Virus record (IMG/VR): IMGVR_UViG_3300031746_004145
Coordinates: 1-64,000 of that record
Direction: 5' to 3' (one strand)
Source of the DNA: a virus
DNA length: 64,000 bases
The translations under genes were made by a program, and so were the position numbers. Positions 3 to 55,467 of the stretch are shown piece by piece. Position 1 is the stretch's first letter; each line of letters opens with the position of its first letter. Under the pieces are notes generated by a model that ran no database searches, was not told the origin of the DNA, and saw only the letters and a list, made by a program, of their open reading frames with translations.

Positions 3-3000
3 AGGCTGCCCAAGTTGACCAACCGCTACAGCTACATCGTCAACGGCAGCGAGTACCAGGTCGATCACCTGTTCCGCCTGAAGAGTGGCATCTACGCTCG
101 AGTGCAGGACAACGGCGAGCTCGAGTCGGAGTTCAATCTGGCGAAGGGTGGCCGCGGCTTCTCTCTCCACCTCGACCCAGTCAAGCGCAAGCTCTCGATG
201 AAGTACGGGGAGGCGAAGATCCCCCTGTACCCGATCATGAAGTCCCTCGGAGTGGCAGACGACGACATCGAGAAGAGCTGGGGCAAGGCGCTCTTCGAGG
301 CCAACAGACCGGCCACCGAGGACAAGTTCAAGAAGTCCCTGCTCAGCTTGGTGAAGCGCACTTCGGATGAGCCCGTGCCGGCAGACGTCTCGATGGACGA
401 CCTACACGGCCACGTGAACGCTCTCTTCAATCAGATGGCCGTGCGCCCCGACACCACCAAACTCACTCTCGGAGAGCCCCACACGGAGGTGACGGGGAAG
501 ACGCTGCTCCAGGCCGCTCACAAGCTTCTCGGCGTCTCCCGCGGCACGCACAAGCCGGATGATCGAGATAGCTTGGCCTTCAAGGAGACCGCCAGTATCG
601 AGGACTTCATTCCCGAGAAGATCATGCGAGCCGGGGCGCGCACCATTCGTGCCCGTCTTCGTCAGACGGTGGACTCGAAGCAGTCGGTCCGCGATGTGGT
701 CTCAACGGACCTCTTCAACCGCCCTGTGAACGAGTTCTTCACCAAGGGTGGCTCAGTGGCGGAGCGGTCTGACCAGACCAACCCGATCCAGATGCTCTCG
801 GCGCACCGTAAGACCACGCTGATGTCGAAGGACTTCGGCGGCATCAAGAGTGACAACTCACTCACTCAGGACATGCAGGCCATCAACCAGAGCCACTTCG
901 GCTTCCTGGATCCGATGCACACCCCTGAGTCGGAACGAACCGGTGTCACCCTGCATCTTGCCTCCCACGTTCGGAAGAACGGGAAGGACATCGAGATTCC
1001 CGTCTACGACATGCAGACCGGGAAGCCTGCCTGGGTGAACGCCAACGAGTTCCACGGCAGTGTGGCCGTCCTGCCGGACCAGGTGAGGTGGGAGGATGGG
1101 AAGCCAAAGCCCATTGCTGCTTCGGTTCGTATGAAGAACGCAGGTGGGGACATCGTTGATAAGCCCTTCAAGGATGCTCGCTACGTCATGCCCTCCACGA
1201 AGGGGATGTGGAACTACACCTCCAACCTCATTCCTTTCCTGTCCACCAACAACGGCAACCGCATCATGATGTCGGACAAGCAGATGGAACAGGCCATCGG
1301 CTTGAAGCATCGAGAGGCTCCCCTGGTTCAGTCGAAGACCGACCACCCAGGCGACCCAGAGCACACCTTCGAGAAGTTCCTGGGGCACTTCATCGCCTCT
1401 CGTGCCCCGGCGGCGGGTAAGGTCTCAGCCATCAAGGGCGACGTCATCCACATCCACGGAGACGACGGCAAGAAGCATGAGGTCCACCTCTACAACAACT
1501 TCCCGCTCAACGATTCGAAGGGGATGCTCCACTCCACCTCCACGATCAAGGTCGGAGACAAGGTCCGCAAGGGGCAAGTGGTGGCGGACAACAACTTCAC
1601 CAAGGATGGCAATCTGGCCGTTGGCACCAACCTTCGGGTGGGATACCTCCCGTACAAGGGCTACAACTTCGAGGACGGCATCGTCATCTCTGAGAGTGCA
1701 GCCGACAAGCTGACCTCCGAACACCTCTACAAGAAGATGGTCGAGATCGACCCAGACAACGACCACATCGGAAAGGCGAAGTACCAGGCGTGGGCTGTGA
1801 CCGAGTCGCAGGCGATGCCCAAGGAGTTCCTCGACGCCCTCGAAGACAACGGCGTCGTGAAGGTCGGTACCAAGGTGAAGCCTGGGCAGGTGCTGGTTGC
1901 CGCCATCGGGAAGAACGACACCAAGAAGGCATCGCTCATGGCGGCCTATGGCAACAAGCGTGCCTTCAAGCCGGTGAAGAACAAGTCACTGGTCTGGGAC
2001 GAAGACCACGAGGGTACCGTCACCAAGGTGGTGCACGACTCCCAGGGGCGTGGGGTTCGCGTCTACGTTCGCACGGAGGAGAAGGCCGTCGTTGGCGACA
2101 AGCTTGCCGGCCGTCATGGCAACAAGGGGATCATCACCCAGATCCTTCCCGACCACGAGATGCCCTTCACGAAGAATGAGAAGGGGGACAAGGACCCTCT
2201 CCACATCCTCCTCAACCCTTCTGGCGTCCCTACTCGTATCAACCCTGGGCAGATGCTGGAGACCGCAGCGGGGAAGATCGCCGAGAAGACCGGGAAGCCG
2301 TACATCGTCGACAACTTCGGAGATGCTCACTCCGACCACCGCACCAAGCTCGAGAACGAACTCAAGGCCCACGGCCTCTCCGACGAGGAGATGGTCTTCG
2401 ACCCCAACGATGTGCGCCGGCCCTTGGGCTCGGTCATGGTGGGTCCTCAGTACGTCCTGAAGTTGAAGCACCAGGTCGAGAAGAAGCTCACGGCCCGAGG
2501 CGGAGGAACCAGCGTCACCGGGAAGCCCTTGGCCGTTGACTCCGACCAGCAGCCCAGTCAGGGGTCAGGGCTTGGAGGTGGTGGGCAGGGGTTCGGAGCC
2601 CTCGAGCTCTACTCCCTCCTCGGGCACAATGCTCGACACAACATCCGGGAGATGTCGACCTACAAGAGCGACAACCAGGACATGCTCTTCTGGAACATGA
2701 TCCAGAACGGGCACGAGCCTCCTCCCCCGCAGGTTCCCTTCAGCTACAAGAAGTTCGAGGGGCTGCTGCGAGGGCTGGGCGTCAACGTGACCAAGGAGGG
2801 GACTTCCCTTCGCATCCATCCCATCACGAACAAGGAAGTGCTCCGCCTCACTGGCAACCGGGAACTCAAGGATGCGGCCAAGACTCTGCGCTCCAAGGAC
2901 CTGAAGCCGGTGCCGGGTGGTCTCTTCGATGAACAGCTCACTGGCGGCCTCGATGGGGACAAGTGGTCCCACATCAAGCTCGACGAGCCGGTGCCCAACC

Positions 3001-6000
3001 CCGTCTTCTGTGGTGGTGGCAACAAGCCAGGACCTGTCCCGGTTCTTCTCAACCTCAAGATGAAGGAGTTCGAAGAGGTGATGGCAGGGAAGCGGGAGAT
3101 CAATGGGCTCTCTGGTGGCAAGGCCATCGAGGCGGCCCTCAAGAAGGTCGACGTCAACAAGGAGGTCGACTCACTCAAGAGGGACCTTCCCAACCTGCGG
3201 GCTGATGAGCTCGACCGGGCCAACAAGCGGCTCAAGTACCTTCTCGCCCTGAAGGACTTGGGGCTGAAGCCACACGACGCCTACATGGTGCACTACGTTC
3301 CTGTGGTGCCGCCGAAGTTCCGTCCTGCCTCGGCGACCCCATCCGGTGACGTGAACTACTCTCCCCTCAACGGGCACTACAAGAACATCAGCCTCATCAA
3401 CGAGCACCTCCGCAACTTCGATGCTGCTCACTTCGATGAGAAGCACAAGCAGCCTCTACGCACCCAACTCTGGGACGCCATGAAGGCGCTCCAGGCAGTT
3501 GGCGTACACCGCGAAGTCTACGACACGGACCAGAGCGGCAACCGGGCGCTGAAGGGCATCCTCGACATCATCGGCGGCAAGCCAGGGGAAGAGCAGCCGA
3601 AGGAAGGCTACTTCCAGTCCAAGCTGGTGAAGCGCCGGCAGAACCTCTCCATCCGCTCGACCATCGTGCCCGAGCCCAAGCTGGGCATCGACGAGGTGGG
3701 CATCCCCAAGAGCGCGGCGATGGAGATGTACAAGCCCTACGTCGTGGCTCAGCTCCAGAAGTGGAACTACCACCCACTGGCTGCGCAGGATGAGATCAAG
3801 AAGATGTCGTCCATGGCATTCAAGGCTCTGGAGAAGGTGGTCGAGGATCGTCCCCTCCTTCTGAAGCGGGACCCTGCTCTGCACAAGTTCTCGGTTATGG
3901 CTTTCAAGCCGAAGCTTGTGGAGGGGAAGGCCATCCAGATCCACCCACTGGTCTGTGGTGGCTTCAACGCCGACTTCGACGGCGACACCATGGGAGGCAC
4001 CATCCCAATGTCCCGGGAGGCGGTGGAGGAGGCGAAGAAGCTCTTCCCTTCCAACAACCTCTTCAGCCCGACCAACTACGGGGCCATGTATCTGCCTGGC
4101 CACGAGGCTCTGCTCGGACTTCACCTGCTCTCGAAGTGGGGCAAGAAGTCGGGCAAGACCTACGACAGCGTGACTGCCTTGGAGAAGGCCGTAGGCGATG
4201 GGCATCTTGCTGTGACGGATGTGGTCTCTGTGAAGGGACTGAAGCAGCCAACCACTCTGGGGAGGATCCTTCTCGAGTCCCGGCTGCCGCGCGGCTTCGC
4301 GAAGAACCCAGAGGTGCTTCACGACCCGGCCTTCGAGTTCTCAAAGAAGTCTCTGCGTGGCATGGCTCCAGACATCGCCAACAAGCACCGGGAGCACTAC
4401 GCCAAGACAGTGGATGCCCTGAAGGACCTCGGCAACGAGTGGTCCTACAAGATGGGCTTCTCCATCGGGCTCAAGGACCTGAAGACCTTGCCCGAACGAG
4501 ATGCCATCATCCACAGGGCAGAGAAGAAGGTTCACGAGCTGAAGAGCACGGGGCAAGGGCACGACGACGATGTCGTGAAGATCTACCAGGGGGCCACGAC
4601 GGAGATCGAAGACGCACAGAAGAAGCTGCACGGCGGGCCTCACCAAGGTGAGCACCGCCTCGCCCAGATGGTCTACTCAGGGGCTCGGGGTGACGCGGCT
4701 CAGCTTCGGCAGATGATCGCCGCCCCGATGCTCGTGGAGGACTCTTCTGGCAAGGTAGTGCCCTACCCGCTCAAGAGGTCCTTCGCGGAGGGCCTCGACA
4801 TCGGGGACTTCTGGATGTACCAGCATGGCGCACGGAAGGGCATCATCCAGCGCAGCCGCGGCACTGCGGAGCCAGGAGCCATCACGAAGGACATCATCAA
4901 CGCCTCCATGTCGACCCTCATCGTCTCGCCAGACTGCAAGACGAAGGAGGGGGTCCACATGCTCGTGACAGACCCCGACATCCACGATCGTTACCTTGCG
5001 GCGCCCTACAAGCTGAAGGATGGTTCCTCCATCAAGGCAGGGGAGCTCATCACGCCGGCAGTCCTCTCGAGGCTCAAGAACTCGAAGGTTGAGACGATCT
5101 CTGTCCGCAGCCCATTGAAGTGCGCCCACGGAGATGGCCTGTGCTCGAAGTGCTTTGGTCTCAACGAGTCCGGGCACCTGCACGACAACGGCACCAACAT
5201 CGGCATCCTGGCCAGTCAGGCCATGGGAGAGCCGTCGGCCCAGCTCTCCATGAACGCCTTCCACACAGGCGGCGTGGCGAAGGGGGGTGGGGCGAAGTCC
5301 ATCGACGCCATCACTCGTCTTCGCAACCTCCTCGAGATGCCCAAGCGGTTGCGCGACGAAGCGACCGTCTCCTTGGCTACGGGCAAGGTCACCGCCATCC
5401 GGAAAGATCCCGCCGGCGGCGCAGACGTGATGGTCACGAGCTACCACAACGACCAGCCGACCGAGGTGAAGCACTACGTGGCTCGACACCTCATCAACGA
5501 TGACATCAAGGTCGGTACTCCGGTAAAGCGGGGCGACAAGCTCTCGAGCGGTTTCGTGAACCCCCACCGTCTCCTCGAGGCAACGAAGAGCATCCACGCC
5601 GTACAGAACTACTTGACCGACGAGCTCCACGACGGACTGTTCAAGGGCCTCGGGGTGCGGCGCAGGAACATCGAGGTGGCCGTCCGCAACATCACCAACC
5701 TGACGAAGGTGAAGGACCCAGGGCACTCCGAGTGGTTGCCGGGGGACATCCTGCCTCGCTCCCTCGTCGAAGAGCACAACCGAACCAGAGCCACAGGGGA
5801 CATGCCGGTTCTGCATGAGCCAGTGCTCAAGGGCGTCGGTGAGATCCCACACCGCATTACCTCGGACTGGATGGCGCGTCTCAACTACCAGCGGTTGCAC
5901 TCGACCGTTCAGAACGCGGCGGCCATGGCTCAGAAGTCCAACCTCCACGGGAGCCACCCCATCCCCGGCGTTGCCTACGGCGCGGAGTTCGGGAAGCCTC

Positions 6001-6038
6001 CTGCCGACGTCAAGTCCAAGAAGCCCCACGTGTACTAG
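3..6038 (+). CDS. Fused beta/beta-prime multisubunit-type RNA polymerase, 5'-partial
   Basis: DNA-directed RNA polymerase with beta-like and beta-prime-like regions in one chain. The frame is open to the window edge; residues are numbered from the TTG at 15 (2007 aa). Residues 5-85 already match the beta region around the 'VNGxE' segment, so roughly the first 120 beta residues probably lie outside. Beta landmarks: NFEDGIVISE near 551-560, KLAGRHGNKG near 696, and a beta C-terminal segment with GGQGFGALELY near 850-890. Beta-prime follows in bacterial rpoB-rpoC order: GLFDEQ near 965, the double-psi barrel with the catalytic NADFDGD (N1318, D1320, D1322, D1324), a four-Cys zinc site (C1641, C1703, C1710, C1713) and the trigger-loop region SQAMGEPSAQLSMNAFHTGG near 1734. 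The N-terminal beta-prime zinc finger was not seen. No alpha, omega or sigma gene is visible here. The spike gene starts 3 bases after the stop. Confidence 0.95.
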   Translation, partial: RLPKLTNRYSYIVNGSEYQVDHLFRLKSGIYARVQDNGELESEFNLAKGGRGFSLHLDPVKRKLSMKYGEAKIPLYPIMKSLGVADDDIEKSWGKALFEANRPATEDKFKKSLLSLVKRTSDEPVPADVSMDDLHGHVNALFNQMAVRPDTTKLTLGEPHTEVTGKTLLQAAHKLLGVSRGTHKPDDRDSLAFKETASIEDFIPEKIMRAGARTIRARLRQTVDSKQSVRDVVSTDLFNRPVNEFFTKGGSVAERSDQTNPIQMLSAHRKTTLMSKDFGGIKSDNSLTQDMQAINQSHFGFLDPMHTPESERTGVTLHLASHVRKNGKDIEIPVYDMQTGKPAWVNANEFHGSVAVLPDQVRWEDGKPKPIAASVRMKNAGGDIVDKPFKDARYVMPSTKGMWNYTSNLIPFLSTNNGNRIMMSDKQMEQAIGLKHREAPLVQSKTDHPGDPEHTFEKFLGHFIASRAPAAGKVSAIKGDVIHIHGDDGKKHEVHLYNNFPLNDSKGMLHSTSTIKVGDKVRKGQVVADNNFTKDGNLAVGTNLRVGYLPYKGYNFEDGIVISESAADKLTSEHLYKKMVEIDPDNDHIGKAKYQAWAVTESQAMPKEFLDALEDNGVVKVGTKVKPGQVLVAAIGKNDTKKASLMAAYGNKRAFKPVKNKSLVWDEDHEGTVTKVVHDSQGRGVRVYVRTEEKAVVGDKLAGRHGNKGIITQILPDHEMPFTKNEKGDKDPLHILLNPSGVPTRINPGQMLETAAGKIAEKTGKPYIVDNFGDAHSDHRTKLENELKAHGLSDEEMVFDPNDVRRPLGSVMVGPQYVLKLKHQVEKKLTARGGGTSVTGKPLAVDSDQQPSQGSGLGGGGQGFGALELYSLLGHNARHNIREMSTYKSDNQDMLFWNMIQNGHEPPPPQVPFSYKKFEGLLRGLGVNVTKEGTSLRIHPITNKEVLRLTGNRELKDAAKTLRSKDLKPVPGGLFDEQLTGGLDGDKWSHIKLDEPVPNPVFCGGGNKPGPVPVLLNLKMKEFEEVMAGKREINGLSGGKAIEAALKKVDVNKEVDSLKRDLPNLRADELDRANKRLKYLLALKDLGLKPHDAYMVHYVPVVPPKFRPASATPSGDVNYSPLNGHYKNISLINEHLRNFDAAHFDEKHKQPLRTQLWDAMKALQAVGVHREVYDTDQSGNRALKGILDIIGGKPGEEQPKEGYFQSKLVKRRQNLSIRSTIVPEPKLGIDEVGIPKSAAMEMYKPYVVAQLQKWNYHPLAAQDEIKKMSSMAFKALEKVVEDRPLLLKRDPALHKFSVMAFKPKLVEGKAIQIHPLVCGGFNADFDGDTMGGTIPMSREAVEEAKKLFPSNNLFSPTNYGAMYLPGHEALLGLHLLSKWGKKSGKTYDSVTALEKAVGDGHLAVTDVVSVKGLKQPTTLGRILLESRLPRGFAKNPEVLHDPAFEFSKKSLRGMAPDIANKHREHYAKTVDALKDLGNEWSYKMGFSIGLKDLKTLPERDAIIHRAEKKVHELKSTGQGHDDDVVKIYQGATTEIEDAQKKLHGGPHQGEHRLAQMVYSGARGDAAQLRQMIAAPMLVEDSSGKVVPYPLKRSFAEGLDIGDFWMYQHGARKGIIQRSRGTAEPGAITKDIINASMSTLIVSPDCKTKEGVHMLVTDPDIHDRYLAAPYKLKDGSSIKAGELITPAVLSRLKNSKVETISVRSPLKCAHGDGLCSKCFGLNESGHLHDNGTNIGILASQAMGEPSAQLSMNAFHTGGVAKGGGAKSIDAITRLRNLLEMPKRLRDEATVSLATGKVTAIRKDPAGGADVMVTSYHNDQPTEVKHYVARHLINDDIKVGTPVKRGDKLSSGFVNPHRLLEATKSIHAVQNYLTDELHDGLFKGLGVRRRNIEVAVRNITNLTKVKDPGHSEWLPGDILPRSLVEEHNRTRATGDMPVLHEPVLKGVGEIPHRITSDWMARLNYQRLHSTVQNAAAMAQKSNLHGSHPIPGVAYGAEFGKPPADVKSKKPHVY

Positions 6039-6041
6039 GCC

Positions 6042-7124
6042 ATGTCCCTCTTCCGACGGCAGCTCGAGGATGCGACCGTTCAACGGGCCAGAGTGCTCGA
6101 CGTGAACGTCAACAACTACACCCTCGTCGTGCAGACCGAGCTGACCCAGAAGACCCTTCCCTGGGTCTCTTGGTCTTCTCCTTACATGCACGCCCACAAC
6201 GGCGAGGGGATCTACTTCATGCCCGAGGTGGGGTCCATCTGCTGGCTCATGGAGCCGTCGGATGGAGGGATGCCCTTCGTGGTGGGGTGGGCATCCCTTC
6301 CCGACAAGAACCGGAGCCATCGCAACCGGCGACTCGACCTCAACCCAGGGGACATCTACTTGGGGACTCGGGACGAGAACCACATTCTCCTACGGCGCGG
6401 AGGGGTGGTGGAGATCGGTGCCACACCTCTCGCCCAGCGTCTCTTCCTCCCCATCGGCAACATGATCAAGGACCTCTGTGCCAACTACTCCCTCCAGACT
6501 TTGGGAGGGGCCCTGGAGTGGACCGTAGGTATCCCGGAAGACGCTACGGATGGCGACCGCCCCACCGTGTTCACCATCAACGCCAAAGAGAAGGCGAACG
6601 AAGCCGCACACGTAGCTACGGTCCAAATCGGTTCCCACGGGGACGGGGATCCTACTATCCTGAGTCTGGTTCTCCGCGCATCTGGTGAGACTGGCGCTAC
6701 CGCCAACCTCACGGTGACGGGGAAGAAGACCGGGGACTTGGACCTGGACTCCAAGGGAGCCATCACCTGGAAGGTGACGGGAGATGTGAAGGTGGATGCT
6801 CAGAACATCACGCTCACCGCCAAGGAGAAGGCGGCCCTCGTCGGCACGCAGGTTGCCGAGATGACGGGCGGGCTGGTGAACATCACTTCGAAGTCCGGAG
6901 CTGTTGCCGTCTCTGCCGCCGGCGGCATGGTGGTCTCGACCTCTGGCGCAGGCCCAGCCCTCACCGCGGGGAAGGGTGCTACAGAGAAGGTGCTGCTGGC
7001 GACTCCCGCCTTCTTGGAGTGGCTCAAGACGCACACGCACACGGCGCAGGGGCCGACATCTCCTACATCTCCGCCAATCCTTCCCCCGCCGACCAAGTCT
7101 GCCAACAACCTGAAGGCATCGTAG
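6042..7124 (+). CDS. Baseplate central spike protein (gpV/gp45-like)
   Basis: Probable membrane-piercing spike at the tip of the tail tube, 360 aa. The N-terminal half (about 1-130) looks like the OB-fold of Mu gp45/P2 gpV-type spikes, with a segment 'GEGIYFMPEVGSICWLM' typical of that fold. Residues 180-310 are strand-rich with repeated short hydrophilic turns, as in a spike beta-helix. The C-terminus carries HTHT (H331, H333) followed by a Pro/Ser-rich tail; in P2 gpV an HxH pair binds a metal ion at the spike apex. ATG is 3 bases after the RNA polymerase stop, so the two are probably co-transcribed. The family call rests on fold-like patterns and the HxH tip, not on a database match. Confidence 0.75.
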   Translation: MSLFRRQLEDATVQRARVLDVNVNNYTLVVQTELTQKTLPWVSWSSPYMHAHNGEGIYFMPEVGSICWLMEPSDGGMPFVVGWASLPDKNRSHRNRRLDLNPGDIYLGTRDENHILLRRGGVVEIGATPLAQRLFLPIGNMIKDLCANYSLQTLGGALEWTVGIPEDATDGDRPTVFTINAKEKANEAAHVATVQIGSHGDGDPTILSLVLRASGETGATANLTVTGKKTGDLDLDSKGAITWKVTGDVKVDAQNITLTAKEKAALVGTQVAEMTGGLVNITSKSGAVAVSAAGGMVVSTSGAGPALTAGKGATEKVLLATPAFLEWLKTHTHTAQGPTSPTSPPILPPPTKSANNLKAS

Positions 7125-7134
7125 AGAGGACGTC

Positions 7135-9303
7135 ATGGACCTGTACCTCGACCAGACCCCGGAGAAGAAGGAAGAGGGCCACGAGAAGACGTCGGCCTTC
7201 GCCGCCCGCCTCTCCGAGTCACCGGAGAACTGGCCGCAGGAGCTGACGAGTGAGCTCTTCAAGCAGCTCCCGTACCTCTCCGACTACGACCTGAACGTGA
7301 ACCTCGACCGCGCCGACTCCCAGCGCGGCTTCGCCTTCGGGTACGCCGATGTGACGAGCCGCACCGAGCGCCCCGACATCGAGCACGGCGACATGGGCAT
7401 CCCCCACCTGCGGATCCCGGTCATCGGGATCGAGCGCCAGGTGAAGCCCTTCTCGGTCTTCCTCGATGGCGACGCCGTCTACCCCCTGACCGAGGAGCGG
7501 GTCCGCGAGACCCTCTTCAACCCCTCGACCTTCGACCTCTCGGCGACGGTGCCCCGCGACCCCAGCCTCATCGAGCCGCTCATGCCGCCGCAGCGCGCCA
7601 GCATGGGCCAGGGCGGTGAGTACAAGATGGCGTCGGCCAGGTCCTTGCTGCACGCCATCGCTCCCACCATCTCCGAGCGGGACGCCAAGGCCTTCGTCGA
7701 GAAGGTCGCCACCGACGCCACCCTTCGCTCTGGCTTCAAGCGCGCCGGCGTGGTCGAGGACCTGGTCGAGATCTTCGACAAGACCAAGCGCGCCTCCGCC
7801 AACGACCGCTTCGCCTACATCGCGGAGCAGATCCAGCCAACGGTGGTCACCCTCCAGAAGCTCCCCGGCGGGGAGTTCCTGGTGAAGCACGCCAACTTCG
7901 GGGCGGTGAACCCGGTCACCCTGCGCGGTGAGGCCGTGCCAGGAGAGGAGGCCGCAGAGGCCATCGGACCCGAGGCCGCGCAGGCCATGGTGCCCGGTCA
8001 GACCGCCACCATGACCGCCGAGCCCATCGAGCTCGAGGAGCCCTTCCAGCAGGTGGCGAAGCCCATCGAGACCTTCGGCGAGTACAAGGTGATGGACACC
8101 ATGGAGAACCAGCTCATGGGCTGGGTCTTCCCCTACACCCTCGCCTGGGACGGCAACTTCACCAAGCAGCCGCTGGCCCTCTTCACCAACGGCTCTGCCT
8201 ACGCGCTCCAGGATTCCATCGTGGGCGACATGGTGGGCAAGAGCACCAACCTGCCGGCAGAGACCAAGCCGGTGGGCGAGGGCGTCCTCTTCACCACCCA
8301 GGGCGGCAACGCCATCTGCACCCAGCCCATCACCATCCGCTCGGCCATGTCTGGGCCGGACGGGTCTCCTTCGCTGGTCGCTCTCGACATGATGGGCCAG
8401 CACATCCAGATCTCCTTCACGGACGGCCTCTCCCAGCCACAGCGCATCAGTGATGTGGAGTACGCCTTCCCGAAGACCTGGAACTTCATGCGCCTGAACA
8501 ACCAGACCCAGCTCCAGGGCGGCGGACAGGACATGGGAGAAGACCCGGAGATGGTGGAGGGCCAGGGCGGTCAGAGCGATGGCGCTCCCAAGCCCCCGAA
8601 GAAGCCTGCCGCTGGCAAGCCTGGCGAGAAGAAGGACGCCAAGGGGGAGAAGAAGCCCGAGAAGAAGGAGGGCAAGCCAGCCGAGAAGAAGGAGAAGCCC
8701 ACGGTGCAGGTGAACGTGGGTGAGGCGGCCAAGAAGGAGAAGACCTCTGCCACGCTCTTCTTCAACGGTGCCTTCCAGTTGGTGGGCGGCTGTGGTCTCG
8801 AGAAGCTGGCCACCGAGTTCCGCTACGACCTCTCTCCCGTCGATGCCGAGTGCATGCTCGGACTCCTCGGAGTGGATGGCCTCGTGGCCAAGGCCAAGGT
8901 GGCCGAGGCTCGCCGCAATGGCTCGGTGAAGCTGGCTGGCCTGAAGACCATCACCACCCTCGGTGAGCGGTACCAGGGAGCCACCAAGACCGCGGCTGCC
9001 CTGATGGCCGACATGCCGAACCTCCGGGTCGATCTCATCAAGGAGGCCTCGGAGCTCCAGGACCAGAGCTCGGTCAACAACGTGCTGGCTCTGAACTTCA
9101 TCAACCCGGAGAACCTGTCGACCTTCATCGACTACATCCCGGAGCTCGAGCAGACCAGCGAGAAGCTCTCCGAGATGCTGCTCTTCTCCTACCTCGGCAT
9201 GAACGAGCTGCCCGAGGGACCGATGGAGCGCAGCATCAAGAACATCGAGAACGTCATCGCCGGTCTGAAGAGCGTGGCGGAGACGGGCCCACGCGAGGAC
9301 TGA
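7135..9303 (+). CDS. Large structural-type protein of unknown function (722 aa)
   Basis: Not recognised. The N-terminus is charged and includes HEKTSAF (residues 21-27), a variant of the K-T/L/I-A/S signature seen in the head-module proteins. Residues 30-450 look globular. Residues about 480-540 are a low-complexity linker of Lys, Glu, Pro and Gly (repeated PEKKEGK-type units), and a second globular segment follows to the end. It sits between the spike and a DELEKIA-containing small gene, starting 10 bases after the spike stop. Position suggests a tail, baseplate or virion-internal protein; a portal role was considered but no portal-like pattern was seen. Confidence 0.75.
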   Translation: MDLYLDQTPEKKEEGHEKTSAFAARLSESPENWPQELTSELFKQLPYLSDYDLNVNLDRADSQRGFAFGYADVTSRTERPDIEHGDMGIPHLRIPVIGIERQVKPFSVFLDGDAVYPLTEERVRETLFNPSTFDLSATVPRDPSLIEPLMPPQRASMGQGGEYKMASARSLLHAIAPTISERDAKAFVEKVATDATLRSGFKRAGVVEDLVEIFDKTKRASANDRFAYIAEQIQPTVVTLQKLPGGEFLVKHANFGAVNPVTLRGEAVPGEEAAEAIGPEAAQAMVPGQTATMTAEPIELEEPFQQVAKPIETFGEYKVMDTMENQLMGWVFPYTLAWDGNFTKQPLALFTNGSAYALQDSIVGDMVGKSTNLPAETKPVGEGVLFTTQGGNAICTQPITIRSAMSGPDGSPSLVALDMMGQHIQISFTDGLSQPQRISDVEYAFPKTWNFMRLNNQTQLQGGGQDMGEDPEMVEGQGGQSDGAPKPPKKPAAGKPGEKKDAKGEKKPEKKEGKPAEKKEKPTVQVNVGEAAKKEKTSATLFFNGAFQLVGGCGLEKLATEFRYDLSPVDAECMLGLLGVDGLVAKAKVAEARRNGSVKLAGLKTITTLGERYQGATKTAAALMADMPNLRVDLIKEASELQDQSSVNNVLALNFINPENLSTFIDYIPELEQTSEKLSEMLLFSYLGMNELPEGPMERSIKNIENVIAGLKSVAETGPRED

Positions 9304-11676: not shown

Positions 11677-12423
11677 CTAGAGCGGGAAGCACTCGGTGAG
11701 GTGCGGGACCTTGGCCTGGCGCAGCTGGTACTGGAGCTGGACCACGTCGTTGGGGTTGAAGGGTCGGCTGAGCGGCCCGGCCTCGTTGCCCAACACGGCG
11801 TAGTGGATCTCCTTCGTCTCGAGGTACGGCGCGAGGTTCACCGGCCCGAGCAGGGGCTGGAAAGAGACGAACCGGTAGTTGGAAGGAACGGCCAGGAGGA
11901 TGGGCAGTCGCGCATCGGCCATCTTCTGGTTCTCGACGCTGGTGCCTTCCCATGTGTTGGGGGGCGGCCACTGGATGGAGTGACCGAGCTCCTTCTCGAT
12001 AGCCGCCTGAAGCGTGCCATCGGTGTAGAGCTTGAGCATGCGCTCCACCCGCTTGGTGAGGATCTGGTACTTGTTGCGCGGGTACCGGTAGAACGCGGCG
12101 TAGATCTTCGCGAGCTGAGCAAGCGAGACCGACGGGTGGAAGAGGTCGCTCATCGGCGCGACCCAGACCATCATGTTGACGATCTTGGCCAGCTCCTTGA
12201 GCCGCTCCTCTCGGAAGAGGATCTTCCCGGTGAACGTCGGGCCGTTCAGCTTGTGGAACCGCGTCAGGCCGACGTGCGCCTTCCCGCTCGGGCAGCGAGA
12301 GATCTTCCACGACGTGAGAGCGGCCCAGCAGAACCGGCAGCCTTCCGAGACGGCGGTGCAGCCAACGAGGACGTGGAGAGACAAGCTTCGCCACGATGAG
12401 TTGTTGTTGTTCTTATCTGCCAT
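11677..12423 (-). CDS. DUF5131 / phage Gp37-Gp68 family protein
   Basis: 248 aa. The N-terminal VGCTAVSEGCRFCW (C-x6-C-x2-C) and the later 'VWVAPMSDLFH' match the DUF5131 (phage Gp37/Gp68) family, which normally opens with a GC-rich Cys cluster and has a 'NSMSDLFH' motif. The family is related in outline to radical-SAM enzymes and is thought to be iron-sulfur dependent; its reaction is not established as far as I know. The segment 'NTWEGTSVENQ' is also family-typical. ACGGAGGC precedes the ATG. A separate hairpin-bearing leader lies upstream, so it may have its own promoter. Confidence 0.85.
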   Translation of the reverse strand: MADKNNNNSSWRSLSLHVLVGCTAVSEGCRFCWAALTSWKISRCPSGKAHVGLTRFHKLNGPTFTGKILFREERLKELAKIVNMMVWVAPMSDLFHPSVSLAQLAKIYAAFYRYPRNKYQILTKRVERMLKLYTDGTLQAAIEKELGHSIQWPPPNTWEGTSVENQKMADARLPILLAVPSNYRFVSFQPLLGPVNLAPYLETKEIHYAVLGNEAGPLSRPFNPNDVVQLQYQLRQAKVPHLTECFPL

Positions 12424-12453: not shown

Positions 12454-12493
12454 GCAGGGAATGGTCCCTGCACAATCCCTTATCCCTACTACT
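12454..12493 (-). promoter_or_regulatory. Leader hairpin and GGGATAAG motif upstream of the DUF5131 gene
   Basis: Between the terminator at 12512 and the DUF5131 start at 12423 there is a 7-bp hairpin (12454-12460 with 12465-12471, loop ATGG). On the minus strand the sequence just upstream, near 12479-12490, reads TAGTAGGGATAAGG. GGGATAAG recurs upstream of other minus-strand starts. A promoter plus 5' leader is a reasonable reading, but it is inferred. Confidence 0.35.
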
Positions 12494-12820: not shown

Positions 12821-12972
12821 GGCTTCCTTCCCATCACCTTCCGACAGTAGCGCCACCTGTGGAGGTACTTGTTAGGTTCTTCTTGTGAACAGGACAGGTG
12901 CCCTGGTTCCGATGCTCCCCCACACTCTGTGCAGAGCCCTTTCTTCTTACGTCTATCAAACGTCTTGTTCAT
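12817..12972 (-). CDS. Tiny Cys-rich basic protein (51 aa)
   Basis: A 51-residue frame starts at the ATG 12972, which overlaps the rnhB stop as ATGA, and ends in an ATGA overlap with the next gene. It contains CTEC, then further Cys residues (CSQ, YCRK) and many Lys/Arg residues, so it is probably a zinc-binding nucleic-acid-associated peptide. Translational coupling on both sides supports that it is real. Confidence 0.55.
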   Translation of the reverse strand: MNKTFDRRKKKGLCTECGGASEPGHLSCSQEEPNKYLHRWRYCRKVMGRKP

Positions 12973-13587
12973 GGAGACCTTCCCAGCCTAGACAGAACCT
13001 TTCGAACGTAGAGAAGCCTGTGGATCGAGCAGATGCCGTGTGTCTTGATCCCCTCCTCGTGCTCGTGAGTGCCGTACCCAAAGTTCCGAGCGAAGCCGTA
13101 CTCGGGGAACTGCTTGCCGTAGTCCACCATCATCGTGTCTCGCAGGTGCTTGGCGATCATGCTGGCCGCCGAGACCTCGATGTGGTTCACATCGGCCTTG
13201 GGTTCGACGATCTGCTTGCCCCCGTACCTGCCAACGTGGTTGCTGCCGTCGACGATGAGGGTAGACGGCGGCACTCGAAGCTCTGCGAGTGCTCGGGCAT
13301 AGCAGAGCTGGAGCGCCGGGCTGACCCCCAGGGAGTCGATCTCCCAGGGCCAGGCCCATCCCATTCCGATGTCCTCGCAGGCTGCGACGAGTAAGGGGTA
13401 GGCGGCGGAGCGTTGCTTCTCGGTGGTCTGCTTCGAGTCCTTGATCCCCGCAGGGAGCAGGCCTCGAGTGTTGTCGTTGAAGACGGCGACGACGGAGATG
13501 ATGGGACCAGCCCAGCTCCCATAGCCGACTTCATCGTAGAAGCCCCCCGACGAATCGGGGGGCTTCCTCCTCTCTACGGGGCGACAT
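12969..13587 (-). CDS. rnhB: RNase HII, frame interrupted near the start
   Basis: Endonuclease that cuts the RNA strand of RNA-DNA hybrids. Visible motifs: YDEVGYGSWAGP (the family's DExGRGxxAGP with Y for R), DSK, IVDGSN, ADVNHIEVSAASMIAK and NFGYGT followed by CSIHR. The frame carrying these has no ATG, GTG or TTG for about 40 codons before the first motif; the next in-frame ATG is at 13667, deep in the upstream gene. In another frame, an ATG at 13587 overlaps the end of the GIY-YIG gene and reads 14 codons into the hairpin at 13541-13564. Skipping one base of the C6 or G6 run joins the frames and gives about 205 aa, the usual RNase HII length. So it is either +1 recoding or a one-base error in the run. 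The stop overlaps the next gene's ATG. Confidence 0.85.
13541..13564. other. Perfect G/C hairpin at the 5' end of rnhB
   Basis: AGCCCCCCGA and TCGGGGGGCT form a perfect 10-bp stem with a CGAA loop. It lies just after the GIY-YIG stop (13574) and across the point where the RNase HII frame is broken. It could act as a terminator or attenuator, as a recoding stimulator, or be the site of a homopolymer sequencing error. Confidence 0.6.
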
Positions 13588-14245
13588 ACTTGAACACCTT
13601 TCCTTTGTACTGAGGTTTCTTCCCGTTGAGCACCATTCCCACCTTCACTTGGGTAGTACGTCGCCACCCGAAGAACTCTACGGCCTCCGTCTGAGACAGG
13701 AAGATCATCCCGGATCCGACCTCAACGAAGGGACGCCCTCCGTGCGCGGAGGACATGTTGCTCCTTGTCTTGTCTGTGTGCTTCCTACCCAGCTGAAGAC
13801 GACGAAGTTCTGCTCGAGTCTCTGGTGTGTGGTCTGTGGGATGCTTCTTCTGGTAGGCACTGACCTTGAGACTGATCTTTTTCCTCTCTTCTGTGGAGAG
13901 GATGTAGCCATGCCTGCCCGGCCCGCCATCGGTTGCGTTGGTCAGCCTGGTCCCAGCCTCTTTGGCCTGTTTGATCATGCGCTGCTCCGCCGCGTAGAGG
14001 TCGTCGGCAGAGGCGCACGCCAGCAAGACTCGGAAGATGGGCTCTAGACCTTCGGCCAACAACGACTTGATCCACTGGGCTCTGTGGTTGCGAGGCGAGC
14101 GATTCAAGTAGCAGGGTTTGAGGTGGCCCTCTCTACGTCTTTCTGGGTTGATGGTCTTGCCGATGTACCGAAGCTCGTTGGTGCGGGGATCGAAGAGCCC
14201 GTACACCACGAAGCGTGGCAGGGCTCCTGGTGAGGGTTCTGTCAT
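13574..14245 (-). CDS. GIY-YIG homing endonuclease with NUMOD domains
   Basis: 223 aa. N-terminal GIY-YIG nuclease: YGL at 15-17 and YIG at 27-29 with RRREGH following; the AAEQRMI segment near 85 supplies the likely catalytic Glu. The middle has a NUMOD3-like stretch (LSTEERKKIS, GRKHTDKTRSNMS) and the C-terminus a NUMOD1-like helix-turn-helix (FLSQTEAVEFFGW). This is the layout of free-standing phage homing endonucleases. TCTGGAGGACAC precedes the ATG. It sits directly upstream of rnhB and overlaps its probable start by 14 bases, suggesting insertion at the rnhB 5' end. No group I intron core was recognised. Confidence 0.9.
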   Translation of the reverse strand: MTEPSPGALPRFVVYGLFDPRTNELRYIGKTINPERRREGHLKPCYLNRSPRNHRAQWIKSLLAEGLEPIFRVLLACASADDLYAAEQRMIKQAKEAGTRLTNATDGGPGRHGYILSTEERKKISLKVSAYQKKHPTDHTPETRAELRRLQLGRKHTDKTRSNMSSAHGGRPFVEVGSGMIFLSQTEAVEFFGWRRTTQVKVGMVLNGKKPQYKGKVFKYVAP

Positions 14246-14267
14246 GTGTCCTCCAGACCTCTTATCC

Positions 14268-14534
14268 CTACGGCGCCGAGTTCCTTTCCTTGCCCAAACG
14301 CTGCTTCATCCCCACGTCGAAGCGCATGTCGAGCTCGGAGAAGGTGGGGCGGCCGACGATGATGCAGTCGTTCTTGGCTGCGTACATCATGGTGATGTTC
14401 CACGCCAACATCCTTGACTTCGGGGGCAGAGGAGACGCGAAGTGGATACGAATCGAGTACACGAGTGCGTTGACACTCTTGTGTGTCTCGAAGGATGCTG
14501 GCGTTCCAGAGGCTCTCCCAAGGGAGTCGGTCAC
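14268..14534 (-). CDS. Small protein of unknown function (88 aa)
   Basis: The minus frame from GTG 14534 has strongly G/C-ending codons, especially over its last 50 residues, which supports coding. The start is uncertain: GTG 14534 has a weak ribosome site, and the ATG at residue 42 is an alternative. No family is recognised. It ends 22 bases before the GIY-YIG gene and lies divergent to the terminase. Confidence 0.45.
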   Translation of the reverse strand: MTDSLGRASGTPASFETHKSVNALVYSIRIHFASPLPPKSRMLAWNITMMYAAKNDCIIVGRPTFSELDMRFDVGMKQRLGKERNSAP

Positions 14535-14591
14535 GTTGGGGATCCAAGACAGGGATGGCGGTAGCACGACGACAGGGTAGCAGGGAGAGTG

Positions 14592-16403
14592 ATGCAAGTC
14601 CTCAGTGCAGAAGAGTTCCTTAGAAACCACACCAGCAACGTGGTGATGGTCAACGGTGAGCCTGAGTACAAGGCCGAGTGGGACTTCGAGCCGGAGGTTC
14701 CTGAGGAGTACATAGACCAGGAGGAGCTCGCCAAGAGGCGAGCTGACCTCATCAACATCTCTCCCTCCCAGTTCACCGAGTTCGCCGTCCGCATTCCAGA
14801 CAAGGAGAGCCAGAAGCACGTCAACTTCAGCTTCGCGGGGCGCGAGTACCTCCGCCTCCCCTACGATACGCCGGCCAGGCGCACCCTCTTCAAGTGCGGC
14901 CGCCAGGTGGAGAAGAGCACGCTGCTGGGCAACCGCACGCTCTCTTACTGCTGCGTCATCAACGCCTTCAACGTCCTCTACGTCTCACCCACCAACCAGC
15001 AGACCAAGACCTTCTCCAGAGACCGGCTCAAGGAGCCGATGGAGACGAGCGAAGTCCTGAAGAGCTGGACTACTACCAAGCTCTCGGACAACGTCTTCGA
15101 GAAGCAGTTCATCAACCGCTCGAAGGTCACGCTCCGCTACGCCTACCATCACGCCGATCGAGTCCGAGGCATCCCAGCGGACATGATCGAGATCGACGAG
15201 ATCCAGGACATCAACACCGACAACATCCCCATCATCGAGGAGTGCGCGTCCCACTCGCCCTACAAGATCTTCACCTACTCAGGAACACCGAAGACCCTCG
15301 ACAACGCCATCGAGAAGTACTGGAATGACTTCAGCACTCAGAACGAATGGGTGGTTCCCTGTGAGCGCCATGGAACTCCCGGCAACCCTTCAAGCTGGCA
15401 CTGGAACATCCTTACGGAGGACAGCATCGGCAAGAAGGGTCTCGTCTGCGACAAGTGCAAAGAGATCATCAATCCGATGCACCCCATGTCGCAGTGGGCC
15501 TCGCTCTACCCGGAGATCCGCAGGCCAGCGCAGGACGGCGGCCTCGGTGATAAGGCCTTCGAGGGCTTCCGCATCCCGCAGCTGATGGTGCCTTGGCTGA
15601 AGTGGGATGACATTCTGGTGAAGTTCCAGACGTACCCGCGGGGTCGCTTCTACAACGAGGTGCTCGGTCTCTCCTACGACTCAGGCACTCGTCCCCTTAC
15701 CCAGCAGGACGTCATCGACAACTGCATCCAGGGCTTCTACATGACGCCCCAGGTGCTGGCGAAGGTGAAGCATGACGCCTCCGGGACCTCGCCCATCTTC
15801 TGCGGGATTGACTGGGGAACCGGCGAAGGCACATACACCGTCCTCTCTCTCGGCACATACATCAACGGCTTCTTCACCATCTTCTACATCCACCGCTTCG
15901 AGGGGCAGGAGCTAGAGCCGCCTATCCAGCTGGGCATCGTGGAGGAGCTGATCAAGAACTGGCAGGTCGAGGTGGTGGGGGTCGACTACGGTGGCGGCTT
16001 CGATCGCAACGACCACCTCACCCGCAAGTTCGGGCAGGGGCGCATCTGGAAGTACCAGTACAGCCAGCCGGGCCAGAAGGTGAAGTGGGAGGATCCCCTC
16101 AAGAGGTTCCTCGTCCACCGCACCGAGGTGATGAGTGATGTGTTCAACGCCATCAAGCGGAGGAACGTCATCCGCTTCCCGGATTGGAGCCACTTCAAGG
16201 AGCCCTTCGGATCTGACCTGCTGAACATCTTCAGCGAGTACAACGAGCAGACCCGGCAGATCGAGTACAAGCACGCGCCCGACAGGACGGACGACTCCTT
16301 CCACTCCATCATGCTCTGCCTCTTGGTATCGATGCTTCGAGTCCCCAGGCACGATGTACTGAACCCGTCTGCCCGTACTGGCGTCTCTACTGAGATCGAC
16401 TGA
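14592..16403 (+). CDS. terL: Terminase large subunit
   Basis: Packaging ATPase-nuclease, 603 aa from the ATG at 14592 with GGGAG upstream. ATPase: Walker A-like CGRQVEKST near 102-110, where Glu replaces the usual Gly before Lys; Walker B MIEIDEIQD near 198-206; and a coupling motif TYSGTP near 230. The segment around 305-320 holds a Cys pair (CDKC). Nuclease: GIDWGTGEG near 415, GVDYGGGFD near 465 and DRTDDSFHS near 575, giving the acidic residues of an RNase H-like fold. It stands alone on the plus strand, with minus genes upstream and a terminator downstream. A small subunit is not obvious; the HTH gene at 17021 is one candidate. Confidence 0.93.
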   Translation: MQVLSAEEFLRNHTSNVVMVNGEPEYKAEWDFEPEVPEEYIDQEELAKRRADLINISPSQFTEFAVRIPDKESQKHVNFSFAGREYLRLPYDTPARRTLFKCGRQVEKSTLLGNRTLSYCCVINAFNVLYVSPTNQQTKTFSRDRLKEPMETSEVLKSWTTTKLSDNVFEKQFINRSKVTLRYAYHHADRVRGIPADMIEIDEIQDINTDNIPIIEECASHSPYKIFTYSGTPKTLDNAIEKYWNDFSTQNEWVVPCERHGTPGNPSSWHWNILTEDSIGKKGLVCDKCKEIINPMHPMSQWASLYPEIRRPAQDGGLGDKAFEGFRIPQLMVPWLKWDDILVKFQTYPRGRFYNEVLGLSYDSGTRPLTQQDVIDNCIQGFYMTPQVLAKVKHDASGTSPIFCGIDWGTGEGTYTVLSLGTYINGFFTIFYIHRFEGQELEPPIQLGIVEELIKNWQVEVVGVDYGGGFDRNDHLTRKFGQGRIWKYQYSQPGQKVKWEDPLKRFLVHRTEVMSDVFNAIKRRNVIRFPDWSHFKEPFGSDLLNIFSEYNEQTRQIEYKHAPDRTDDSFHSIMLCLLVSMLRVPRHDVLNPSARTGVSTEID

Positions 16404-16469: not shown

Positions 16470-16916
16470 CTACTTCCCGAGGAGGCGGACCTTCGGGGTG
16501 CCGAGCCAGTCGGCCACGTACTCGTTGTACACCTTCCCGGCGGCGAAGAGCCCGCCGGTGATGACGGGGAAGTGCCACACCTTGATGTTCATGCCCCCGA
16601 ACCGCCGGACGGCGTTGACGTAGGTGTCCTCGTGCTTGCCGGTCCGCATGATGTCGGCGCCCCGGACGTCACCGGCCCCGTAGAGGAGGTCGGCGACCGG
16701 CACGTAGGCCTCCTTGGGGAGCTCCCCGCGGAAGCGGGTGAAGAACGACTCGAGGGCCTTCTCCTCGGTGGCCGCCGCGCCGGCGGCTGGCGCGGCGGGC
16801 GGCTGGACGAGGTGCGGCTGGAACGGCGGGGTCGGGGTGGCGGTGGCGCCAGCGGCCTCCTCGGCGGTGGCGGCAGCGGCATCGAGCACGATGCCCTTCT
16901 TCGGGGTCTGCTTCAT
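16470..16916 (-). CDS. Hypothetical protein with Ala/Pro-rich N-terminus (148 aa)
   Basis: Not recognised. Residues 10-60 are low in complexity, rich in Ala, Pro and Thr, like a flexible linker; residues 62-148 look globular (FFTRFRGELPKEAYVPVADL, later GGMNIKVWHF). It is the only gene between a HTH gene and the terminator. The 104-base gap upstream contains GGGGCATAAGG on the minus strand, resembling a motif found upstream of other minus-strand genes. Confidence 0.7.
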   Translation of the reverse strand: MKQTPKKGIVLDAAAATAEEAAGATATPTPPFQPHLVQPPAAPAAGAAATEEKALESFFTRFRGELPKEAYVPVADLLYGAGDVRGADIMRTGKHEDTYVNAVRRFGGMNIKVWHFPVITGGLFAAGKVYNEYVADWLGTPKVRLLGK

Positions 16917-17020
16917 GTGGTTGTTCCTCTTCCGGAAGGAAGTGCACCCACGGGATTGTGGGCGACAGGGTATTTCTACCCAGCACTTTCCTTATGCCCC
17001 TGAGGGTGGGGGAATTGCTG

Positions 17021-17737
17021 TTACCGGGCGCTGAGGGCCCTACGGAGCTCGTCCTGGGGGGTATCCAGGGCTTGGAGAAGGGTCTGTGGGATGGTTCCCC
17101 TCCCCGACTCGATCCAGAAGAGGGAAGCAGTCCGTATCTTCTTTCTTCCCTGCTCCATCTTCGCAGCCAAGGACTGAAGAGATAGGTCGTCCTTCACCTT
17201 CTTGGGAGAGAGGGAACTCGACATCTTGTTCACGAGGTCAAAGAGAGGCTTCCAGGGCTGCGCGCTGCTCGTGACTGCTGCGAGTTGCTCGATGGTGGTT
17301 TCGTCCACCTGATTGAAGATGCCTGCCCAGGACTCCAGCTCCTTGAGCTGGTACTTCTGGAGTGCGAGGTAGTCAACCACCGCACGTTGGAGTCCTGCTG
17401 CTTCTTTTTCTCCCATCCGCAGAGGCTTCTCCTGAATGCCCATGGACTCCCACATGGCCTTCATCGTTCGCAGCTCTTCTTCGAGTTGCGTTACGCGCCT
17501 GTTCAGTTGGAAGATGGTGCGACGGTTCACAACCGGAAAGTCCGTTCCAAGTTCCTCAGCCAGCTGTTCCACATCTTCGGGACGTACGAGGATCTTCCGA
17601 TTACGAATTGCTTCCTTCTTGAGGAAGCCCTTCTTGAGGTAGTTATTGACCGAACGCTTCGAGCAGCCAAGACGACTGGCGACCTCGGGGATGGTCATGA
17701 GCTGGGTGAAAGTGCTTCCCAAGTGGCGACCCTCCAT
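17021..17737 (-). CDS. Excisionase/MerR-like HTH DNA-binding protein
   Basis: 238 aa. Residues 14-65 form a helix-turn-helix of the excisionase/MerR type (MTIPEVASRLGCSKRSVNNY, then KKGFLKKE and an Arg-rich wing). Residues 75-105 are a predicted coiled coil, and the remainder is helical. The ATG at 17737 is used, but ATG 17698 (MTIPEVAS) is possible. The gene is divergent from the gene at 17763 with only 25 bases between starts, so it may control that head operon. A terminase small-subunit role is an alternative, since those also carry an HTH plus coiled coil. Confidence 0.75.
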   Translation of the reverse strand: MEGRHLGSTFTQLMTIPEVASRLGCSKRSVNNYLKKGFLKKEAIRNRKILVRPEDVEQLAEELGTDFPVVNRRTIFQLNRRVTQLEEELRTMKAMWESMGIQEKPLRMGEKEAAGLQRAVVDYLALQKYQLKELESWAGIFNQVDETTIEQLAAVTSSAQPWKPLFDLVNKMSSSLSPKKVKDDLSLQSLAAKMEQGRKKIRTASLFWIESGRGTIPQTLLQALDTPQDELRRALSAR

Positions 17738-24851: not shown

Positions 24852-25985
24852 ATGAGCGCCACTGCCGTCCCAGCCAAGGTCCTCAACGACCTCTTCTTCG
24901 AGAAGATCGGGTCCACCGAGGGCAAGGACAAGATCGCCGAGTTCGGAGGCACGTACATCCGCGACCGCCTCCGTGAGGTCAGCTTCGCCCGCAAGATCAT
25001 CCCGCCGACCCCCGTCCAGCGCAGCGAGCTCCAGCGCTCGGTGAACCACGACACGCTCGTCAAGATCGTGGACATCGAGCCGAACTCGAAGGCGATGAGC
25101 CTGACCTTCCGCGGTCAGCCCACCGCCCGCTTCATCCGCGCCCCGCGCTTCGAGATCCCCTTCTTCACCATCTCCTCGGAGAAGTTCGAGAAGACGGAGC
25201 AGGAGCTCCTGGCGTACGAGATGCCCATCACCAAGATCATCGAGGAGAACTCGGTGAAGGACATCCAGGCCATCGAGGACCGCCAGTTCCTCATCTACGT
25301 CGAGGCCTGCGTCCAGGCGGCGCAGCTCGCCATCAACGGCGGCTCCGCCGTCGGCTTCCGCACCGGTTCCGGCGCGGCGACCTACAACGCCCTGCTCAAG
25401 GCGTCGGTGATCAAGGGTGCCGGCGCCGTCACCGAGAACGCCGTGACCTTCACCACGACCGCTCTCCAGAAGAACGACTTCGTCAAGCTGAAGCAGCTCC
25501 TGCACCGGAAGTTCCTCCGGGCGGAGCGGCTCCTGATGACGGAGCCGGAGTACGACACCCTCTCGACCTGGACCATGACCGAGGTCTGGAACATCGCTGC
25601 CGAGACGGCGACCGAGGGCTGGAAGAGCAACACCGTGGTGGGCCTGAAGATCATCCGGACCATCAAGACCAACATCCTCCGCGAGGGCAACGTCTACTGC
25701 TTCACCGCCCCCGAGTTCTTCGGCCGGTTCTACATCCTGAACCAGACGAAGTTCTACATCGACAAGATCGCCAACCTCATCACCTGGCAGTCGTGGGAGG
25801 ACATCGGCATGGGCTTCGGCAACGTGGCCGCCGTCGTCAAGCTCGAGCTGTACGGCGGGTCGGTGACCCCCGGCCAGACGGACTCCAACTACGCCAACGT
25901 CCTGCCGATGGACGAGGACCAGCTGAACCCGGTCAACAACCTGGCCGACGCCGGGACGACGTATCCCCAGGTCGACCAATTTTGA
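24852..25985 (+). CDS. Major capsid protein
   Basis: 377 aa, HK97-fold candidate. The N-terminal arm (1-45) is helical; residues 60-130 hold an extended-loop-like region (PRFEIPFFTI), then a long charged helix (FEKTEQELLAYEMPITK) that could be the spine helix, and the rest is mixed with strands near the C-terminus (FGRFYILNQTKFYID). Length, position after protease and scaffolds, and very strong codon bias fit a major capsid protein. AAGGAGACAAGACC precedes the ATG. Its TGA lies inside a TTGACA promoter box. The call rests on context more than a recognised motif. Confidence 0.75.
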   Translation: MSATAVPAKVLNDLFFEKIGSTEGKDKIAEFGGTYIRDRLREVSFARKIIPPTPVQRSELQRSVNHDTLVKIVDIEPNSKAMSLTFRGQPTARFIRAPRFEIPFFTISSEKFEKTEQELLAYEMPITKIIEENSVKDIQAIEDRQFLIYVEACVQAAQLAINGGSAVGFRTGSGAATYNALLKASVIKGAGAVTENAVTFTTTALQKNDFVKLKQLLHRKFLRAERLLMTEPEYDTLSTWTMTEVWNIAAETATEGWKSNTVVGLKIIRTIKTNILREGNVYCFTAPEFFGRFYILNQTKFYIDKIANLITWQSWEDIGMGFGNVAAVVKLELYGGSVTPGQTDSNYANVLPMDEDQLNPVNNLADAGTTYPQVDQF

Positions 25986-55401: not shown

Positions 55402-55467
55402 GGCGCTCCATGGTGTAGGTTGTTGGCCTTCAATGTCTTATCCCCTCAACCAGGACCCTTTGGACGA
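55402..55467. promoter_or_regulatory. Divergent intergenic region
   Basis: 66 bases between the MoxR-like gene and the plus gene at 55468. On the minus strand it reads GAGGGGATAAGACATTG near 55430-55446, sharing GGGATAAG with two other minus-strand upstream regions. No convincing -35/-10 pair on the plus strand. Confidence 0.35.

Follow-up and report, generated by a model that had tools for sequence, protein, structure and literature searches.

A single-chain beta-beta' RNA polymerase in a family of tailed bacterial viruses, with a candidate sigma factor and a promoter-like signal

Positions 3–6038 (+) of the window, the 64,000-nucleotide stretch of viral DNA analysed here, encode a bacterial-type RNA polymerase whose beta and beta' subunits form one chain. 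This chain belongs to a large, apparently undescribed family of tailed bacterial viruses, with no description of a full beta-beta' single-chain phage polymerase found in the open-licence literature. We consider it likely that the chain is the core of a virion-packaged, sigma-directed and probably rifampicin-resistant single-chain holoenzyme that fires the early genes of the phage.

Results

The reading frame comprises 2011 codons with zero internal stops, and its 5' end is the edge of the 68,008-base viral contig, since the window begins at contig base 1. The encoded chain of 2011 amino acids is cut at this end, with 92–93 N-terminal residues absent as judged by three relatives (L003, L004, and L005), whose uninterrupted chains of 2103–2104 residues start at a TTG codon and are 86–87% identical to that of the window. 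Pfam domains are colinear in one frame, with Rpb2 domains 2, 3, 6, and 7 followed by Rpb1 domains 1, 2, 3, and 5 (best E-value of 4e-61, with four of nine hits at or above the curated cut-offs), and a phmmer search of the PDB returns bacterial beta' chains (E-value of 1e-112 for M. smegmatis beta'). The rpoB-rpoC order in one frame of more than 2000 residues, read in the initial annotation from the sequence of the window, is thus borne out, with the homolog searches proposed there yielding the N-terminal residues in relatives, beta and beta' domains, and single-chain homologs. The window is also colinear with a 198-kb relative, G001.

Alignment of the chain to E. coli RpoB and RpoC provides the residue equivalences given here. 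The beta moiety, carrying the four Rpb2 domains, spans residues 1–933 (3–2801, +), with residues 246–276 aligning to the rifampicin region, in which most contact residues are changed (H526A, Q513E, F514R, and S531T), suggesting that the polymerase is probably rifampicin-resistant. The catalytic lysines of the beta barrel are retained as K700 and K708 (2100–2126, +), equivalent to E. coli K1065 and K1073, as are the positions of beta E813 and D814. The junction of the two moieties, at about residues 928–940 (2784–2822, +), is near-seamless in both the alignment and a comparison of loci, with the end of beta passing into the start of beta' near residue 930 with almost zero linker. In the beta' moiety, the N-terminal zinc finger, Cys70-88 in E. 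coli, has been lost at 2934–2966 (+), as had been suspected, and the NADFDGD catalytic Mg motif, recognised by both Pfam and alignment, is intact at N1322–D1328 (3966–3986, +). The bridge helix region is followed by C1645, the first cysteine of the C-terminal zinc site (together 4797–4940, +), with the other three provided by C1707, C1714, and C1717 (5121–5153, +). The trigger loop (5208–5291, +) lacks SI3, conserves H1754, and carries N1751 at the position of E. coli R933, and the clamp helices and flap region are also recognisable. The catalytic motif, four-cysteine zinc site, and trigger-loop region named in the initial annotation are all present, and the single chain is predicted to synthesise RNA.

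An AF2 model of residues 440–1400, built with 57 sequences (pLDDT of 87.4 and pTM of 0.77), predicts a two-barrel core, with both barrels folding together within one chain. Foldseek searches with this model match PDB beta chains (E-value of 1e-33) and also the cyanobacterial beta' N-terminal chain 8gzh_D (TMt of 0.67).

Joining of the two subunits is general in the family. A scan of 80 loci found the whole enzyme in one open reading frame in 75 of them, with a median of 2117 codons from stop to stop; of the remaining five, three run off the end of their contig, and the only interruptions in the other two are in-frame TGA codons, several of which align with conserved tryptophans. As this first scan was biased to full-length matches, a beta-only scan was added, with the single chain recovered in 72/72 untruncated loci and the junction intact in the other eight, which are truncated. 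A stop or split between beta and beta', the result named beforehand as counting against a fusion, was thus seen in none of the untruncated loci. PHROG 25354 and 24349 (lengths of 1216 and 1191, 'unknown function') were considered as closer phage families and rejected, as their sizes fit bacterial rpoC and rpoB; the most likely source of their members is host genes within predicted prophages.

The polymerase gene lies among structural genes. An ATG at 6042, 3 bases past the polymerase stop, opens a gene for a gpV-like central spike/baseplate OB protein (6042–7124, +), identified by Phage_base_V and synteny; the spacing reported in the initial annotation stands, however the product is of the gpV/central spike type and not a receptor tailspike. 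Homology and synteny assign the 722-residue protein that follows (7135–9303, +) to the family of gp218 of Salmonella phage Arash, a protein detected in virions (PMC10585845). Further downstream are the large terminase (14589–16403, +; PF05876 and phrog_675), the major capsid protein (24852–25985, +; phrog_2522), which is a homolog of Arash gp226, and a tail sheath (42573–45920, +; phrog_279), the last marking a contractile-tailed phage. Of 76 single-chain loci, 63 have a portal homolog upstream of the polymerase and 70 have a gpV-like homolog next to it, all on the polymerase strand, with the loci lacking either neighbour including contig-end cases. This gene order supports placing the polymerase in the late, structural programme.

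No sigma gene was seen in the window, in agreement with the initial annotation for this fragment; in the family the same claim does not hold, as relatives encode a sigma elsewhere in the genome, with a homolog present in 25 of 31 large contigs. Direct Pfam sigma searches of G001 gave nothing convincing, and its candidate, P0005 (287 residues), surfaced through homology to Arash gp10. Profile comparisons identify P0005 as a divergent sigma70-family factor with regions 2–4: its family profile matches PDB sigma factors across these regions (E-value of 1e-15), P0005 matches the PHROG sigma family phrog_351 (3.4e-7), and its AF2 model, of moderate quality (pLDDT of 66.5), returns mostly sigma factors among the top PDB matches in Foldseek. 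In G001, G025, and G010 the gene lies within the baseplate/tail operon, and association of its product with the single-chain core appears plausible. Region 4 is shortened in the Arash-type sigmas. A weak Sigma70_r4-like hit in the window (17618–17707, −) was rejected, the protein in fact being HTH_17/excisionase-like. Arash carries a second sigma, gp196, which the two-polypeptide holoenzyme model proposed below does not need. As the initial annotation had noted for alpha, no alpha-like domain was found in the 14 records searched, in which controls were positive, and each of the 14 contains one PF00562 hit (the beta barrel gene), indicating a single polymerase in each.

A conserved promoter-like signal accompanies the enzyme. 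The sequence GGCATAAG occurs 10 times in G001, always on the strand opposite the polymerase, and the strand bias recurs in G004, G025, and G010. Motif discovery rested on this bias and on the spacing of an upstream CAA, with no 6- to 8-mer standing out by count against shuffles in G001 alone. In single-chain phages the signal takes the form CAA-N16-GG[C/G]ATAAG, with the CAA at −19 to −17 of the aligned sites, 34 of 35 of which have A at −17, and with T/A at +12/+13; this placement would put 17 bp between the −35-like and −10-like hexamers and point to a plausible start site. Across G001, G025, G010, and the window, the GG-N-ATAAG core is found 55 times on the non-structural strand and twice on the structural strand, with a CAA 19 nt upstream of the core forming a sharp peak (28/55). 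Of 37 family records, most contain more copies of the pattern than of its reversed control, usually with the excess on the non-structural strand. An independent de novo search of Arash returned GGTATAAG, with 30 minus-strand sites and one plus-strand site, 23 of the 30 lying no more than 60 nt upstream of an annotated gene start, compared with 7% of random positions. A motif search for a late-strand promoter gave none.

The window itself holds four GGSATAAG cores, all on the minus strand, a count reached by 6 of 100 shuffles and thus modestly unusual. These comprise CAA-N16-GGCATAAG at 16991–17017 (−), 75 nt upstream of the minus-strand gene at 16470–16916; AAA-N16-GGGATAAG at 14261–14287 (−), 16 nt upstream of that at 13574–14245; and two GGGATAAG cores at 12479–12486 (−) and 55437–55444 (−), which lie 56 nt and 36 nt upstream of minus-strand genes at 11677–12423 and 54445–55401 respectively. 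Allowing two mismatches, CAA-N16-GGCATAAG is not enriched in the window, and with enrichment this weak the motif is not provable from the window alone.

The initial annotation had looked to phiKZ-like phages for comparison; the closest isolates are instead Salmonella phage Arash and Vibrio phages D69, D181, and D148, with gp206 of Arash 33% identical to the single chain. Arash resembles the single-chain phages in its homologous core, in the portal gene just upstream, in the joining of beta to N-terminal beta', in its homologous sigma within the baseplate cluster, and in the GG[N]ATAAG signal carried by its non-structural strand. In contrast to the one chain of the window phage, Arash and 27 related loci, which form a second branch, have beta' divided after the catalytic barrel, with the remainder in a second gene (gp206 and gp216 in Arash); some loci are cut further near P0001 residue 1125, and beta in D181 is interrupted as well by a homing endonuclease gene. 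The Arash signal GGTATAAG also lacks the clear upstream CAA of the single-chain phages, with the shortened region 4 of the Arash-type sigmas a suggestive match to these CAA-less sites. The paper describing Arash reports neither the fusion nor promoters (PMC10585845). The two branches separate cleanly in a quick tree, in which a quick model, few outgroups, and long branches leave the single/split order and the root tentative. As the beta-beta' fusion is kept in both branches, parsimony suggests that it predates their split and that the cuts in beta' came later, with the root uncertain.

Discussion

Together, these observations suggest a model in which the phage core chain and a phage sigma70-type factor would form a two-polypeptide holoenzyme, with neither alpha nor a second polymerase. 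Core and sigma would be made late, from the head and tail morphogenesis operons, and then packaged in the virion; following entry, the holoenzyme would recognise −10-like GG[C/G/T]ATAAG promoters on the non-structural strand, with recognition in single-chain phages also using the CAA about 16 bp upstream. A virion-borne holoenzyme acting on early promoters would permit early transcription without the host polymerase, probably in a rifampicin-resistant manner. The broader proposition, that an unnamed deep clade of contractile-tailed phages possesses such a packaged two-polypeptide holoenzyme, an ancient fusion older than the split from Arash, and its own early GG[N]ATAAG promoters, we regard as evenly balanced.

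The initial annotation had left promoter recognition open, and whilst a conserved promoter-like signal has now been found, its use by the predicted phage holoenzyme is what we infer. GG[N]ATAAG may instead be read by the RNA polymerase of the host together with one of its own sigmas, with the phage enzyme acting later on other promoters. The layout of the motif is of the ordinary sigma70 type, with a −10-like element, and many phages rely on the host polymerase early in infection. However, the GG-N-ATAAG core is common to metagenomic phages of differing G+C content and a Salmonella phage, whose polymerases are only about 33% identical, and its retention across such phages is more readily explained by a phage-encoded factor than by host factors that are unrelated. 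The host −10 consensus is TATAAT, from which the last G of the phage motif also departs. We therefore consider reading by the host enzyme unlikely, albeit a serious competitor to recognition by the phage holoenzyme.

Doubtful to a similar degree, and if anything slightly more so, is a non-virion enzyme for middle or late genes, similar to the phiKZ nvRNAP, with detection in Arash particles reflecting carry-over. The gene does lie within a late structural cassette, and the Arash authors themselves raise the possibility that abundant enzymes in particles are carried over (PMC10585845). In mass spectrometry of purified Arash virions, however, gp206 is the most-detected protein, with 3516 spectra, and gp216 (1210 spectra) and the sigma gp10 (467 spectra) are also abundant (PMC10585845). 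Furthermore, each genome has one polymerase, and the sole strong promoter-like motif sits on the non-structural strand, both of which argue against an enzyme restricted to later genes. The suggestion in the initial annotation of a late or packaged enzyme is accordingly plausible, and by analogy with Arash the polymerase is probably packaged in the virion of the window phage.

Two further readings carry far less weight. A QDE-1-like single chain with two minimal barrels, of the crAss/YonO/P23-45 type, would likewise be phage-encoded, in one chain, and probably virion-borne, and is highly improbable given the near-full-length alignment to bacterial beta and beta' (through Pfam and the M. smegmatis beta' match) and the presence of the clamp helices, flap region, bridge helix, and zinc site. 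An assembly or frameshift artefact fusing two genes, conceivable for a metagenomic contig with the 5' end of the gene at its edge, can be set aside, as the junction is unbroken in all untruncated loci examined, from many separate metagenomes and phage isolates.

If the packaged, sigma-directed holoenzyme is correct, no simpler sigma-dependent polymerase of the bacterial type would be known, as it would have one core chain, one sigma, and no alpha. This bears on how much of RNA polymerase can be dispensed with, on the delivery of an initiating polymerase with the genome, and on whether phages have used sigma-directed initiation ever since an ancient acquisition of the enzyme. Arash can be cultured and so offers a way in, the promoter-like signal makes promoter recognition directly testable in vitro, and a core encoded by one gene could serve as a practical tool enzyme.

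Amongst known systems, the mReC phages, multi-subunit RNAP-encoding Caudovirales that are mainly metagenomic and reach about 200 kb (PMC7481178), resemble the window family as tailed phages that encode beta and beta' of a cellular-like type. Their description covers beta and beta' subunits, a gp23-type capsid (PF07068), and a PF03237 terminase, with fusion of the beta and beta' genes not mentioned in the text of that paper (PMC7481178). The PF07068 capsid was found in none of 31 family contigs, nor in Arash or D69, with the controls Carin-5, YerA41, and RHph_TM21B above cut-off, and the window terminase is of the PF05876/phrog_675 type, scoring below the cut-off of PF03237. Some mReC contigs may be of the same kind, with the present family set apart by description and markers.

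The two-barrel RNAPs of phiKZ and AR9 are also phage-encoded and comprise virion and non-virion forms, the former for early transcription; these are built from at least four or five polypeptides, with two enzymes per phage and no sequence-level homolog of bacterial sigma (PMC7598289). In contrast, the window family has one gene, one enzyme, and a sigma. The RNAPs of crAss (gp66) and YonO, and that of P23-45, which is fused to the tape measure protein, each carry both barrels in one polypeptide and are in part packaged, and are distant from cellular beta and beta' (PMC10770324), with no COG0085/COG0086 similarity detectable for the crAss enzyme (PMC7481178). Unlike those of crAss and YonO, the window chain has full bacterial domains and matches cellular beta/beta' profiles. 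Natural rpoB-rpoC fusions in the same order exist in Helicobacter and Wolbachia; these are cellular enzymes that work with alpha and omega, and their fusion is independent of that in phages. What appears to be new here is a one-chain phage beta-beta' core with its own sigma and a matching promoter-like signal, a combination that suggests a self-sufficient packaged machine.

The single-chain beta-beta′ polymerase frame of one low-GC relative (L102:7710-13784) contains 11 in-frame TGA codons and zero TAA or TAG, with the corresponding frame at L101:9945, from the second member of this 35–38% G+C pair, containing one in-frame TGA and likewise zero TAA or TAG. Because several of these TGAs coincide with conserved Trp positions in the alignment, TGA is probably decoded as Trp in both phages.

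Interruptions are also seen in the polymerase genes of other relatives. A 341-aa intein-like insert in L089 follows window residue 708, exactly in the catalytic-lysine loop, and a 407-aa intein-like insert in L057 follows window residue 1754, exactly at the trigger-loop His; both begin with Cys, end in GN or HN, and are followed by Ser or Thr. In Vibrio phage D181 (L008, 4695-10209), a homing endonuclease gene splits the beta part into two ORFs. Within the trigger loop of the window polymerase, Asn1751 (nt 5253-5255) occupies the position of E. coli beta′ R933, which is Arg in close relatives and varies across the family. Four unannotated “phage” records (H4, H5, H7, and H15) align with full-length beta/beta′ at 27% identity and resemble contaminating bacterial contigs.

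The minus strand of the window encodes an AAA_5 (MoxR-like) ATPase adjoining a CoxE-type VWA protein (52718-55401), the pair being preceded at 36 nt by a promoter-like site, as well as a putative GIY-YIG endonuclease-like protein (13574-14245) and a putative RNase HII-like protein (12969-13667), both assigned by eye. In the colinear 198-kb relative G001, a short hairpin lies at most about 20 nt downstream of many GGCATAAG sites, with downstream 50-nt folds giving a mean z of -1.4; early mRNAs may carry these hairpins in their 5′ leaders.

Further sigma-like genes are present in Salmonella phage Arash (gp196, L027:21156-22193) and Vibrio phage D69 (L010), and in each of them region 2 is more clearly recognisable than in gp10, the virion-detected sigma of Arash.
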